DNA of 64,000 nucleotides, taken from the NCBI GenBank assembly GCA_014896295.1, contig JADBKR010000003.1, positions 124,001-188,000 of the forward strand, in the 5' to 3' direction. The stretch is from Limnochordaceae bacterium. GTDB lineage: Bacteria > Bacillota > Limnochordia > Limnochordales > Geochordaceae. The position numbers were made by a program, and so were the translations under genes. The notes under the pieces were generated by a model, which saw nothing but the letters and a program-made list of their open reading frames with translations, ran no database searches and had not been told where the DNA came from. Positions 49,883-55,729 of the stretch are shown in pieces. Each line of letters opens with the position of its first letter. Position 1 is the stretch's first letter.

Positions 49883-50476
49883 TTGCGTACGTTCGTGGCG
49901 GTTCTTGTGGACGAGGCCTTGCGCGACTGCATTGCCGCGTACGTCGAAAGCCTGCGGGCCGCAATGGGGCCGGCGGCACGGCACGTGCGCTGGGTCGACC
50001 CCGCTCAGTACCATTTCACCTTGCGGTTCCTCGGGGATCTGGACGAACAGGACAGGCAGCGGGTGTTCGACGCCGCCGGCGAGGCGTGCAGCGCAGCGCG
50101 GCGCTTCCGGTTGTCGACCGGGGCGGTCGGCGCCTTTCCCAGCCTGGAGCGGCCTCGTGTCCTCTGGATCGGGGTGGAGCCCCCCGAGGCCGCGCGCCGG
50201 CTGGTCGAGCTGGCGGCCCGCCTGGAGCAGGCGCTGGTGGCTCGAGGGCTGGGGCCGGCGGACAAACCGTTCTCGGCCCATCTGACCCTGGGGCGGCTGC
50301 GGGACGGCGCTCCGGGGCAGGGCGTGGCGGCGGCGCTCGGAGCGTGGCGACCTGCCGCCGCGTGCGGCAGCATGGTGGTGCGCGAGGTGACCGTCATGGC
50401 GAGCACGCTCACCGCCAGGGGGCCCATCCATACACCCCTGTTTTCCGCCCCCATCCGGGCAGGGAGGGACGAGTAG
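49883..50476 (+). CDS. thpR: RNA 2',3'-cyclic phosphodiesterase (2H family)
   Basis: A 197-residue member of the 2H phosphoesterase family (ThpR/LigT), which opens 2',3'-cyclic phosphates on RNA. Two HxT motifs are present, HFTLRFLG (about residues 44-51) and HLTLGRLR (about 131-138), with the N-terminal RTFVAVLVDE. A TTG start is used. It lies between the phosphoesterase and recA, 3 nt before the recA start. Confidence 0.93.
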   Translation: MRTFVAVLVDEALRDCIAAYVESLRAAMGPAARHVRWVDPAQYHFTLRFLGDLDEQDRQRVFDAAGEACSAARRFRLSTGAVGAFPSLERPRVLWIGVEPPEAARRLVELAARLEQALVARGLGPADKPFSAHLTLGRLRDGAPGQGVAAALGAWRPAAACGSMVVREVTVMASTLTARGPIHTPLFSAPIRAGRDE

Positions 50477-50479
50477 AGC

Positions 50480-51640
50480 ATGACCACTCCTACGGCACAG
50501 GACGCGCTGGAGCGCCAGAAGGCGCTGGAAGGCGCGATCTCCCAGATAGAGAAGCAGCACGGCAAAGGCTCGATCATGCGCATGGGCGAGACCCAGACGG
50601 AGCACGTCGACGTGATCCCGACCGGCTCGCTCGCCCTCGACATCGCCTTGGGCATCGGCGGAGTGCCCCGCGGGCGGGTGGTGGAGATCTACGGCCCCGA
50701 GTCGTCGGGCAAGACGACGCTGGCCCTCCACATCATGGCGGAGGCGCAAAAAGCCGGAGGGATCGCGGCCTTCATCGACGCCGAGCATGCCCAGGATCCC
50801 CGGTACGCCCGTCGCCTGGGCGTCGACGTGGACAACCTCCTGATCTCCCAGCCGGACAGCGCGGAGCAGGCGCTGGAGATCACGGAGGCGCTGGTACGCA
50901 GCGGGGCGGTCGACGTGGTCGTCATCGACTCGGTGGCGGCCCTTGCCCCGCGGGCGGAGCTGGAGGGCGAGATGGGCGACGCCCACGTGGGGCTTCAGGC
51001 GCGGCTGATGTCCCAGGCGCTGCGCAAGCTGACCGGGGCCATCTCCCGGTCGCGGACCACCGTGGTCTTCACCAACCAGATCCGGGAAAAAGTAGGGGTC
51101 ATGTTCGGCAACCCCGAGACCACTCCCGGGGGGAGGGCCCTCAAGTTTTACGCCACCATCCGGTGCGACATCCGCCGGGTGGAGGTGCTCAAGCAAGGTA
51201 CCGACAACATCGGGATGCGGGCCAAGGTCAAGGTGGTCAAGAACAAGCTGGCGCCGCCGTTCAAAGAAGCGGAGTTCGACATTCTCTACGGGACGGGCAT
51301 CTCCCGGGAAGGGGACATCCTGGATCTGGGCGTGGAAGCCGGCGTCATCCAGAAGAGCGGGCCATGGTTCTCTTACGGCGATACCCGGCTGGGCCAGGGG
51401 CGCGAGCAGGCGCGCGACTTCCTGCGGCAAAACGCCGCCACGGCCGACGAGATCGAAAACCTGGTCCGGCAGCACTTCGGCCTGCCCCCGATCGTGCGTG
51501 CGGTCAAGGCCGCCGCACCCTCCGAAGCCTCGTCCGCACCCCAGGCGCTGTCCGCGGCCGGCGCGGCCGCCGAAGGAGCGCCCGCGCCGGCGAGCCGCCG
51601 GAGCCGGGCCGAACGGGCCGTGACCACCGGCAGGCGATGA
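50480..51640 (+). CDS. recA: Recombinase RecA
   Basis: The 386-residue RecA has Walker A GPESSGKT (residues 72-79), the [21 protein letters not shown] region, loop L1/L2 neighbourhood [25 protein letters not shown] and the C-terminal [20 protein letters not shown]. An Ala/Pro-rich tail of about 50 residues ends in basic residues. ATG follows GGGAGGGAC. No LexA box was identified upstream; the gene is only 3 nt from thpR and probably co-transcribed with cinA. Confidence 0.98.
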
Positions 51641-51667
51641 GGGTCCGGGCCGGAAGGGGGAGCACGG

Positions 51668-52345
51668 TTGGCGATCCGGATCGCGTCGCTGGAGCGGCGC
51701 CGGGGGCGCAGCTGGTACCGCCTGATGGCCGCGTCGCAGGAGGCCTGGGTCGTGGATCAGGAAGCGCTGGAGAGCCTGGGGCTCACGGCCTGGGCCTCGC
51801 AGGGCGCGGGCAAGGCCGCGCCGGAGCCGCCGGAGATCGAGCCCCTGTTGCTCGAGGAAGCGGAGCGGGCCACGGCCCGCCGCCGCGCGATTCGTCTCCT
51901 GGGCCAGCGTGCCCGGAGCGAGGTGGAGATGCGGCGCCTCCTGGGCGCATGGCCCTTCCGCCCGGATACGATCGAGGACACGGTCCGCTGGGTCCGCGCC
52001 CTGGGGTATCTCGACGACACCGCCCTGGCCCACGACGTGGTGGACCTGCGGGTGGGGCGGGGAGCGGTGGGCCGCAAGGCCCTGCTCCTGGAGATGGAGC
52101 GGCGTGGCATCGACGAGAGCGTGGCGCTCCGGGTCGTGGCGGAGAAATACCCCCGCGAGCGAGAACAGGAGGCAGCGCTTCGCCTGGCCATGCGGCAGCT
52201 GGCGCACCTGCAGCGGCTGGCGCCCGCGCAGCGGGCCGCGCGCCTGTGGGGATACCTCGTGCGCCGCGGCTTCGACGAAGAGCTTGCGCGCGAGGTGGCG
52301 GTACGCGCGGCCCACGAATCCGGCACCGCCGGCGACGCCACGTGA
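51668..52345 (+). CDS. recX: Regulatory protein RecX
   Basis: RecX modulates RecA filaments. The 225-residue product shows three-helix repeats, for example AIRLLGQRARSEVEMRRLL with VRWVRALGYLDDTALAHDVVD, then GRGAVGRKALLLEMERRGIDES, and the last repeat RLWGYLVRRGFDEELAREV. It starts at a TTG behind GGAAGGGGG, 27 nt after recA, the usual recA-recX order. Confidence 0.93.
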   Translation: MAIRIASLERRRGRSWYRLMAASQEAWVVDQEALESLGLTAWASQGAGKAAPEPPEIEPLLLEEAERATARRRAIRLLGQRARSEVEMRRLLGAWPFRPDTIEDTVRWVRALGYLDDTALAHDVVDLRVGRGAVGRKALLLEMERRGIDESVALRVVAEKYPREREQEAALRLAMRQLAHLQRLAPAQRAARLWGYLVRRGFDEELAREVAVRAAHESGTAGDAT

Positions 52346-52370
52346 GCGGCGGGAGCCGTCGTGGTGGGCG

Positions 52371-52400
52371 TTGACACCGGAATTGCGCAAAGGCTAGAAT
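52371..52400 (+). promoter_or_regulatory. Sigma-A promoter upstream of rny
   Basis: A perfect TTGACA (52371-52376) and TAGAAT (52395-52400) with an 18-nt spacer, just after recX. It is one of the strongest vegetative promoter matches in the window. Confidence 0.8.
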
Positions 52401-52406
52401 ACGAAC

Positions 52407-52485
52407 GAAGCCGGGGAAGTGTGACTTTCCTGCGGCGACAATTGACGCCTGCCGGCAGCCGAGTGGGTGTCCCCTCGGCTTTTTG
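52407..52485 (+). ncRNA. Short structured transcript with its own promoter and terminator, upstream of rny
   Basis: About 79 nt between the promoter and a strong terminator contain no plausible gene. The RNA can form a GGAAG/CTTTCC hairpin (52415-52430), a GGCG/CGCC hairpin (about 52434-52449) and the terminator stem. This is either an independent small RNA or a transcription attenuator controlling rny. The layout (short aptamer-sized region, terminator, then gene) is like a riboswitch, but no known class is recognised. Confidence 0.5.
52458..52484 (+). terminator. Intrinsic terminator between recX and rny
   Basis: GCCGAG (52458-52463) pairs with CTCGGC (52474-52479), followed by five T residues (52480-52484). 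The loop carries GTGGGTGTCC, almost the same as the loop of the terminator at 44903-44932. Confidence 0.8.
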
Positions 52486-52554
52486 TGCATTCGCAGGCGT
52501 GTGATCGCGATGGCTGCGGGGCGGCAGGCCGCCCGGCAGTCCGCACCTTGACAA

Positions 52555-54111
52555 GTGAAGGGGGTGTCGCGGATTTCCGCGCTGGTCATCGCGCTGATCG
52601 CGCTGATTGCTGCGGGCGCTTTCGCCGCGGGCTACACGGTTCGCAAGGCGACCTTCGAGGCCCGCATCGGGGGCCTCGAGGCCCGGGGCAAGGCGATCAT
52701 CGAAGAGGCTGAGAAGACCGCCGAGGCGAAGAAGCGTGAGGCCTTGCTGGAGGCCAAGGAAGAGGCCCACCGGCTGCGGCTCGAGGCGGAACGAGAGCTC
52801 CGCCAGGAGCGAGCCGAGCTCCAGCAGGTCGAGCGGCGGTTGCTCCAGCGGGAAGAGCTGTTGGAGCGCAAGCTCGAGGGTCTGGACCAGCGGGAGCAGG
52901 CCCTTGCCCGCAAAGCTGCGTCCGTGGACAACGCCATGGCCCAGGCCGAGGAGTTGCTGCGGCGCCGGCGAGCCGAGCTGGAGCGGGTCGCCAACATGAC
53001 CACCGAGGAGGCCCGCCAGGAGCTGATCAAAGACGTCGAGGCGGAGATCCAGCGGGACGTGGCACGGATGATCCGGGAGGCGGAAGAGCAGGCCAAAGAG
53101 CAGGCCGACCGGAAAGCGAAGGAGATCATCGCGCAGGCCATCCAGCGCTGTGCGGTGGATCACGTCGCCGAGATCACCGTTTCGGTGGTCAACTTGCCCA
53201 ACGACGAGATGAAGGGGCGGATCATCGGCCGGGAAGGGCGCAACATCCGAACGCTCGAGACCTTGACCGGCATCGACCTCATCATCGATGACACGCCGGA
53301 GGCGGTCATCCTCTCCGGCTTCGACCCGGTACGGCGAGAGGTGGCCCGGCTGGCCCTCGAACGGCTGGTGGCCGACGGGCGCATCCATCCGGCCCGGATC
53401 GAGGAGATGGTCGAGAAGGCCCAGAAGGAAGTCGACGCCATCATCCGCGAATACGGCGAGCAGGCTGCCTTCGAGGCCAAGGTGCCCAACCTCCATCCGG
53501 AGCTGATCAAGCTGCTGGGACGGTTGAAGTTCCGGACGAGTTACGGGCAAAACGTGCTCAAGCACTCGCTGGAAGTGGCCTACCTGGCGGGGCTGATGGC
53601 TTCGGAGCTGGGGGCCAACGTGGACGTCGCCCGCAGGGCCGGCCTGTTGCACGACATCGGCAAGGCCGTTTCCCACGAGGTCGAAGGCGGGCACCTGCAG
53701 ATCGGGATCGAGCTGTTGCGCCGGTACCGGGAGTCGCCGGAAGTGATCCATGCCATGGCCTGCCACCACGGCGACTATGAGCCGCAGAGCGTCGAGGCCG
53801 TCCTGGTGACCGCCGCCGACGCCATTTCTGCGGCCCGCCCGGGTGCCCGGCGCGAGACCCTGGAGTCGTACATCAAGCGTCTGGAGAAGCTGGAGGCCAT
53901 TGCCGATTCCTTCGAGGGCGTGGAAAAGGCGTATGCCATCCAGGCGGGCCGGGAGATCCGGGTCATCGTCAAGCCCGAGCGGATCGACGACGCCATGGCC
54001 ACCAAGATGGCCAAGGACATCAGCAAGCGCATCGAGCAGGAGATGGAGTATCCGGGCCAGATCAAAGTGACCGTCATCCGGGAGACGCGGGCGGTGGAGT
54101 ACGCCCGCTGA
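52555..54111 (+). CDS. rny: Ribonuclease Y
   Basis: RNase Y is the membrane-anchored endonuclease that initiates mRNA turnover in many Firmicutes. The 518-residue product has an N-terminal helix (about residues 6-27), a long Glu/Arg/Ala coiled coil to about residue 190, a KH domain ([17 protein letters not shown]) and an HD domain ([41 protein letters not shown]). It ends [12 protein letters not shown] as usual. GTG 52555 lacks a clear ribosome-binding site; GTG 52564 is a possible alternative. Expression may depend on the leader upstream. Confidence 0.95.
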
Positions 54112-54137
54112 CCCGGCCGCGACATGAGGGATCACGG

Positions 54138-54174
54138 GAAGCCCCTGCCGCCCGAAGGCGACGGCAGGGGCTTC
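54138..54174 (+). terminator. 13-bp perfect hairpin after rny
   Basis: GAAGCCCCTGCCG (54138-54150) and CGGCAGGGGCTTC (54162-54174) pair perfectly across an 11-nt loop, 26 nt after the rny stop. There is no U tract, so it may be a weak terminator or an mRNA-stabilising end. Confidence 0.5.
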
Positions 54175-54336
54175 GCGCGTCTGCGGGCGTCTTTGGCCTC
54201 GAAGGCCCGGGCCACGCGCCCGGGCAGGCTGCCGGTGCCTCCAATTCCCTATCCGCCCTACCAGGGGATCCAGCCCCGGGCGACGAAGGCTACCTACGCT
54301 CATTTGAGGCGATTCGAGGAAGAGAGAGGCGTCTCG

Positions 54337-54912
54337 ATGCAGCAGCGTCCGTCGCACGCCGTCGCCGGAGATTCGCACGACAGTTTCCTGGCCATGCTGC
54401 TCGAGCGTTACCACGAGGTCCTCACGGTCCGCTACCTCGCCCGCAAGCGGCTCATCGAGCTCACGTTCCTCGCAGATGGCGAGATCGGGACGGGCCAGTT
54501 CATGCACCTGAGGACCCAGCTCCAGAGGGCCGGGGAGGCAATAGGAGTGCTCCTCTCCATCCCGCCCGGCAGCCTGCGCTGCCGCCGGAGCTTCGTCCTC
54601 GGATACACGCAGCTGACGATCCAGCGAGACCTCGACACCCTCTCCGTGGAGGAGCTGGACGTCCTGGTCGCTCTGGTGCGCCAGGTGCTCGGGCCTCGGC
54701 TCGTCGTGGAGCCGCTCGCCTCCGGCGAGGGGCCCTCCGGCGACGTGGCCGACGACGACGGAGCATCGCCGGAGCGCCTGGCTCACCACCTCGAAGCGCT
54801 CAAGCGCCGCCGCCGCATTCACACCCTCATCGGATTGCGCCACAGCGGGCAGCCTTTGGTGTACGATATGGTGACGAGCCCCGCCTCATCCGCCGGGGCC
54901 CGCCATCGCTGA
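54337..54912 (+). CDS. Protein of unknown function between rny and ymdB
   Basis: A soluble-looking 191-residue protein I do not recognise. It is helical at the start (FLAMLLERYHEVLTVRYLARKRLIELTFLADGEI), then has a beta-rich centre (IGVLLSIPPGSLRCRRSFVLGYTQLTIQRDLDTLSVEEL) and an acidic loop. It ends with a basic helix ERLAHHLEALKRRRRIHTLIGLRHSG. No signal peptide or catalytic motif. ATG 54337 follows GAGAGAGG; the frame is open back to 54124 but crosses the hairpin, so the shorter form is preferred. Base composition matches its neighbours. Confidence 0.7.
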   Translation: MQQRPSHAVAGDSHDSFLAMLLERYHEVLTVRYLARKRLIELTFLADGEIGTGQFMHLRTQLQRAGEAIGVLLSIPPGSLRCRRSFVLGYTQLTIQRDLDTLSVEELDVLVALVRQVLGPRLVVEPLASGEGPSGDVADDDGASPERLAHHLEALKRRRRIHTLIGLRHSGQPLVYDMVTSPASSAGARHR

Positions 54913-54943
54913 GCCTGACAGGCACGGAGGCCTTGGCGTCGGC

Positions 54944-55729
54944 ATGCGCATCCTGCTGATCGGCGACGTCGTAGGGCGCCCCGGGCGGCGCGCGATCCGG
55001 GAGCTCCTACCCCCGCTCGTCGAAGAGCTCAGAGCCGACTTCGTGGTGGTCAACGGGGAAAACGCCGCCGGCGGCTTCGGCATCACCGAACCCACGTACC
55101 GGGAGCTCCTCGACGCGGGCGCCCACGTGGTCACCACGGGCAACCACGTGTGGGACCGCAAGGAAGTGCTGGCCTTCATCGACCATGCTCCCCAGCTGGT
55201 CCGGCCGGCCAACTTCCCGCCCGGCGCGCCTGGGCGTGGCAGCGTCGTGGTGCGTTCGCCGGGCGGGGTCCCGGTCGCCGTGCTCAACCTCATGGGGCGC
55301 ACTTTCATGTCGGCGCTGGACTGCCCTTTCCGGACCGCGGACCGGCTGGTCGAGGAGCTGCGGCGGGAGACGCCGGTGGTCGTCGTCGACTTCCACGCCG
55401 AGGCGACCGCCGAGAAGGTGGCCATGGGGTGGTTCCTCGACGGGCGGGCCACGGTGGTCTTCGGTACCCACACGCACGTGCCCACCGCCGACGAGCGAGT
55501 CCTCCCCCGCGGCACGGCGTACCTCACCGACCTCGGCATGACGGGGCCGCGCGACGGGGTCATCGGGATGGAGCGGGAGGGGGTGCTCCGCCACCTCCTC
55601 TCGGGCCTGCCCCACCGCTTCGAGGTGGCCTCGGGCGTGGCCCGCATGGACGCCGCCCTGGTCCAACTGGACGAGGCCAGCGGGCGAGCCAGCTCCATCC
55701 AGCGCATCCACCGTTTCACCGCCTCCTAG
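54944..55729 (+). CDS. ymdB: YmdB-family metallophosphoesterase (cyclic nucleotide phosphodiesterase)
   Basis: The 261-residue product belongs to the TIGR00282/YmdB family, di-iron phosphodiesterases that hydrolyse 2',3'-cyclic nucleotides and affect biofilm and nanotube phenotypes in Bacillus. Metal motifs: ILLIGDVVGRPGR, NGENAAGGFG, TTGNHVWDRKE, VVVDFHAEATAEK, GTHTHVPTADE and DLGMTGPRDGVIG. The rny-ymdB neighbourhood is widely conserved in Firmicutes; the spoVS gene that often follows is missing here. Confidence 0.95.
   Translation: MRILLIGDVVGRPGRRAIRELLPPLVEELRADFVVVNGENAAGGFGITEPTYRELLDAGAHVVTTGNHVWDRKEVLAFIDHAPQLVRPANFPPGAPGRGSVVVRSPGGVPVAVLNLMGRTFMSALDCPFRTADRLVEELRRETPVVVVDFHAEATAEKVAMGWFLDGRATVVFGTHTHVPTADERVLPRGTAYLTDLGMTGPRDGVIGMEREGVLRHLLSGLPHRFEVASGVARMDAALVQLDEASGRASSIQRIHRFTAS

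Follow-up and report, generated by a model that had tools for sequence, protein, structure and literature searches.

A promoter-terminator leader conserved upstream of the RNase Y gene, probably a transcription attenuator

The interval between recX and rny

The window, a 64,000-nt stretch of the genome of a Limnochordaceae bacterium, carries a short promoter-to-terminator unit in the gap that separates recX from rny, which encodes RNase Y (Table 1). As the earlier note had stated, this unit contains no gene; none lies between the end of recX (52345) and rny. The promoter reported there, TTGACA-18-TAGAAT, is likewise borne out. Specifically, its -35 hexamer (52371-52376) and its -10 hexamer (52395-52400) together give 11 of 12 matches, and this sigma-70-like site is the sole match in the 5.5 kb from 50000 to 55500, where shuffles yield 0.1. 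A site of 11 of 12 arises in 0 of 5000 shuffles of the recX-rny intergenic region. Transcription of the leader would be expected to start near 52407. A promoter scan detected no second promoter between the terminator and rny in the window. The segment ACCTTGACAA, which stands before the Shine-Dalgarno (SD) sequence, was considered as a second promoter and rejected, given that no -10 element follows it.

Table 1 Features of the recX-rny interval and its flanking genes, in positions of the window
Feature	Position	Strand	Remarks
recX, upstream neighbour	51668..52345	+	Outside the element, which goes with rny and not with recX
Sigma-A-type promoter of the rny leader	52371..52400	+	TTGACA, spacer 18, TAGAAT
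Variable 5' part of the leader	52407..52443	+	Hairpin possible; sequence differs even between genera of the family
Family-conserved linker GACGCCTGCCGGCAG	52444..52458	+	From aligned sequences of four family genomes
Intrinsic terminator	52457..52484	+	AGCCGAG-U-GGG-UGU-CCC-CUCGGCU with U5; core CCGAG/CTCGG conserved in the phylum
Second conserved block ACCTTGACAAGTGAAGGGGGTG (ACCTTGACAANYGARGGGRGGTG)	52545..52566	+	Ribosome-binding sequence at 52558-52566; anti-SD-like ACCTT before it
rny, RNase Y, putatively regulated gene	52555..54111	+	Start uncertain: GTG 52555, GTG 52564 or ATT 52573

The terminator had been described as perfect. It is real and has a U5 tail, but good is the more fitting word, because one U is bulged out of the stem. 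A simple terminator scan misses the hairpin at 52457-52484 because of the scan's loop rule. The tail of the hairpin in the window reads CTTTTTG and is without TTNTTT, and the pattern of the hairpin followed by a plain run of T has one match in the organism's own genome, at the rny leader.

The 79-nt RNA folds with -35.9 kcal/mol, compared with -27.0 kcal/mol for its shuffles (z -2.85), and this stability comes mostly from the terminator. The two additional hairpins that had been proposed can form, but they are weak, because the part of the leader before the terminator folds no better than shuffles (z -0.9, and -0.7 in a second test), and their sequence is lost in relatives. Rfam (Rfam 15), searched at gathering and at permissive thresholds, returned nothing relevant, either for the window or for 20 relatives. 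Antiterminator pairing between the upstream leader and the 5' arm of the terminator, measured against shuffles, showed no general signal (mean z -0.15); a z of about -2.2 was reached in just one genus-level group within family f13. Inspection by eye revealed no conserved leader-peptide frame in the window or in the family and class leaders, and no ATG in the window leader. A leader peptide, and with it a ribosome-mediated attenuator, was rejected, as no frame is conserved relative to the terminator. Nor is the invariant block constrained as a peptide, since its third codon positions do not vary. A 10-nt palindrome, CTGCCGGCAG, lies at 52449-52458 just 5' of the terminator and is invariant in the family; it could allow the formation of RNA dimers.

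Further downstream, the block ACCTTGACAANYGARGGGRGGTG is kept 5' of rny in two families of the order, f1 and f2 (the window and loci L106-L112). Its ACCUU is able to pair with the SD sequence and may hide it. The start codon of rny, furthermore, seems to be non-canonical in many Bacillota, with ATT, ATC or ATA placed 5-7 nt after a strong SD sequence; cases are found at 52555-52575 in the window and at loci L024, L036, L043, L060, L061, L116, L128 and L140. An isoleucine codon (ATT/ATC/ATA) at normal SD distance, accompanied by an in-frame GTG inside the SD sequence, occurs at 61 of the 141 loci examined; at 11 of these 141, no codon other than AUH is an in-frame candidate between -4 and +10 nt of the SD sequence. 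A class-wide non-AUG start of rny was rejected: because the GTG inside the SD sequence is in frame, a GTG start with a conserved isoleucine is equally possible in the 61 loci. At L024/L128 and at L140, an in-frame stop just upstream would make ATA the likeliest start of rny.

Conservation of the hairpin with rny

In two genomes of a sister genus, the promoter-terminator unit also lies between recX and rny. They retain the promoter and the final 40 nt (GAYGCCTGCCGGCAGCCGAG...CTCGGCTTTTT), whereas the 5' half is wholly different. Regions upstream of rny were fetched from the order and the class, and 61 class loci were compared. A promoter with 9-11 of 12 matches is present upstream of rny at 60 of the 61 loci, and the hairpin core C[CT]GAG...CTCGG with a T-rich tail lies between promoter and rny at 57 of the 61, while shuffled upstream regions give such a hairpin and tail in 0.62 of 61. 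The comparative structure search upstream of rny that the earlier note had proposed as a check is thus positive. The promoter comes before the terminator in all 56 class genomes in which the order could be evaluated, and a promoter-like site 3' of the hairpin was seen just once, and weakly, in the 61 rny loci scanned. Between promoter and terminator, the leader differs in sequence from family to family, and its length differs too. The tail contains TTNTTT in 42 of the 57 class leaders, and the closing pairs before it are often A-U or G-U. As a genome-wide pattern, the hairpin with TTNTTT has 28 sites in 72 class genomes versus 0 for the reversed control, and 24 of these 28 sites adjoin rny by their coordinates.

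Across the phylum, the hairpin with TTNTTT has matches in 56 of 299 genomes. Among 30 loci fetched from these matches, as picked by the search tool, 22 have the hairpin 4-92 nt before rny. A promoter with 11-12 of 12 matches lies 5' of the hairpin at 12 of 12 scanned phylum loci, and a site of at least 10 of 12 follows the hairpin at none of these 12. The gene upstream is recA, recX or neither, and the hairpin remains with rny; because the upstream gene varies in this way, the element can be said to follow rny and not its neighbour. Within a set of 80 named rny loci, the hairpin occurs in Desulforamulus, Thermincola, Tepidanaerobacter, Syntrophaceticus, Lucifera and others. The Bacillus-like genomes of the same set have no such hairpin, and a TTGACA-17-TAnAAT promoter is retained there. 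In Negativicutes (L036, L043), the hairpin is present without a run of T and may therefore do something other than terminate transcription in these bacteria.

Other rny leaders show features of their own. Some Desulfosporosinus-type loci carry a terminator of another sequence in the matching position before rny. Leaders of this type (L056, L063, L069, L072, L037) are ~180 nt long, appear conserved and structured (AACCUUUAAAGGUUUUCUUAUAGAUUUCGUAGUAGUCAGCU...) and sit about 70-300 nt before rny, with a terminal terminator of a different stem; a scan of L056 and L063 gave no Rfam match. Additionally, the leaders of Thermincola, Desulforamulus and a related MAG (L026, L028, L035) begin alike after the promoter, with GGGAGAAAnTAGAATnnGAT, some 190 nt upstream of the CCGAG terminator.

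The hairpin was also tested for covariation, on 45 distinct sequences that include kin. Five of its nine pairs change on both sides, and 95% of cells are paired. The covariation score exceeds those of all 500 shuffles and of all slid versions, counts that are not to be read as probabilities. It is the outer pairs that covary; four of the five core pairs (CCGAG/CTCGG) never vary, a constancy that follows in part from the selection of hairpins by the core pattern. So constant a core suggests that its sequence matters, beyond pairing alone. Because the core is almost frozen and accompanies rny in much of the phylum, the hairpin is probably read by something beyond generic-hairpin recognition.

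A probable leader terminator of rny and its alternatives

In the window, the parts stand in the order of an attenuator: a promoter comes first, an intrinsic terminator second and rny last, and no second promoter lies between the last two. Because the promoter at 52371 comes first and nothing promoter-like follows the terminator, transcription of rny from this promoter must cross it. The available sequences are best read as a cis-acting leader terminator, that is, a transcription attenuator, of rny, an interpretation that we consider probable. Of the riboswitch-like attenuator suggested earlier, the attenuator part, a promoter-terminator leader on rny, is strongly backed by comparison, and the riboswitch-like part is not.

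The data are compatible with a model in which RNA polymerase starts at the strong 52371 promoter and makes a leader of about 78 nt. At the intrinsic terminator, 52457-52484, most polymerases should stop, and the RNase Y gene would be reached only by those that read through. The reader of the hairpin would be either RNA polymerase together with NusA/NusG or a hairpin-binding protein, and the state of this reader would set the extent of read-through and thereby the amount of RNase Y. We infer that termination takes place but is incomplete, that expression of rny relies on read-through and that this read-through is regulated; it is probably tuned by termination factors or by a hairpin-binding factor. 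In other lineages, the terminator would sit inside the rny 5' UTR, since Bacillus loci share the promoter type and are without the hairpin. A point against the model is that transcription of recX could read through and constitute an alternative supply of rny.

The model leaves room for two more specific proposals. Autoregulated attenuation had been thought to make sense for this gene, and autoregulation by RNase Y at the rny leader is indeed plausible by analogy, since B. subtilis RNase Y autoregulates; the route taken in B. subtilis is cleavage of the mRNA, however. More speculatively, the CCGAG-CUCGG hairpin might be a phylum-wide, sequence-specific sensor of RNA-decay capacity that sets RNase Y via termination, an ancestral device lost in Bacilli or replaced there by autocleavage of the mRNA. 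We regard this as possible but doubtful; what is sensed might be RNase Y, its partners or the elongation factors.

Because the Negativicutes hairpin (L036, L043) has no T-run, the strongest rival is a mainly post-transcriptional role, in which the hairpin, within the rny mRNA, is bound by a protein or marks where RNase Y or RNase J enters or is blocked, termination being secondary. The almost sequence-frozen core speaks for such a role, as does autoregulation in B. subtilis, where RNase Y cuts its own transcript in the 5' UTR and the early ORF (PMC10303841). A simple binding site would, however, have no need of the T-rich tail found at 57 of 61 class loci, and we judge this rival to be rather unlikely.

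The equal chance that the earlier note gave to a free small RNA was too generous. According to this view, a stand-alone small RNA gene of ~78 nt lies before rny by chance, and its product works in trans or serves RNase Y as a decoy substrate. The unit does have its own promoter and terminator with no gene within, its 3' half GACGCCTGCCGGCAG is conserved in the family, and terminated leaders are capable of trans action too. Yet the unit always stands before rny, to which it is tied in all lineages examined, and past the terminator rny has no promoter-like site of its own. Neither independence from the neighbouring gene nor a conserved seed, the marks of a trans-acting small RNA, was found: since leader sequence and length vary between families, no seed is shared, and the part kept across families is the terminator alone. 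Such an origin of the unit is improbable.

The same can be said of the idea that the terminator just ends the recA-recX operon and insulates rny, its position after the rny promoter being incidental. Lying about 110 nt after recX, it would block read-through from recA-recX. This account would leave the promoter-then-terminator order seen in 56 of 56 evaluable class genomes to coincidence, the hairpin accompanies rny whatever is upstream, even where neither recA nor recX is in reach, and a simple operon end does not need a core that is constant throughout the phylum. Least credible is a metabolite-sensing riboswitch or T-box-like switch on rny: leader terminators are frequently part of such switches, but the window leader has just about 50 nt before its terminator, and this upstream part is variable, folded no more than shuffles and devoid of a conserved aptamer-like portion, of a general antiterminator and, in the window and 20 relatives, of any Rfam match.

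In many Bacillota, bulk mRNA decay begins with RNase Y, whose dosage therefore touches the whole transcriptome. If rny is indeed governed by a leader terminator, RNA decay in distantly related lineages would be subject to a further, so far undescribed level of control. No earlier account of an rny leader terminator was found in the open-access literature, to which the search was confined. The leader-terminator reading predicts a short terminated leader together with partial read-through, and it raises the question of what reads the CCGAG/CTCGG hairpin.

Comparison with known systems

The closest known case concerns the same gene. In B. subtilis, rny has a sigma-A promoter and a 164-nt 5' UTR (PMC10303841), and RNase Y autoregulates by cleaving this 5' UTR and the early ORF, with trimming by RNase J1 (Korobeinikova et al. 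2023, PMC10303841). The two cases have in common the gene, a sigma-A promoter, a 5' UTR that is or would be regulatory and a strong SD sequence able to join secondary structure. They differ in that no leader terminator is described for B. subtilis (PMC10303841), and the Bacillus loci examined are without the hairpin.

The NusG-dependent terminators of B. subtilis feature A-U pairs at the hairpin base, an interrupted U-tract and TTNTTT (PMC8060035), and B. subtilis NusG is reported to recognise the TTNTTT pause motif through N81 (PMC12288461). The TTNTTT of 42 of the 57 class leaders resembles these NusG-/NusA-dependent terminators (PMC8060035). The source organism departs from the type, both in the window's CTTTTTG tail without TTNTTT and in its NusG, encoded at L205:1291-1980 on the minus strand, whose WYVVRHTPGV segment has H where the B. 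subtilis protein carries N81. The window does not match the B. subtilis type, with TTNTTT spanning hairpin base and U-tract and a pause-type NusG (Y77, N81, T82); the tails of many class members do. Given the tail without the motif and the H at N81, a NusG-dependent step in the source organism is only a suggestion.

The autoregulation of rne offers a further parallel, in that a conserved leader hairpin there, too, belongs to the gene of the main decay-initiating endonuclease. Control of rne, in contrast, proceeds by binding and cleavage of the mRNA with no terminator, and both hairpin and enzyme are unrelated to those of rny. Classical attenuators and riboswitch expression platforms consist of a promoter, a short leader, an intrinsic terminator and the gene. 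Unlike them, rny has no aptamer, leader peptide or general antiterminator that could be found, and it shows that same order of parts. Leader terminators are a known kind of element; this one, with its almost frozen core, its wide distribution and its target, rny, is absent from Rfam and from the open-access papers searched.
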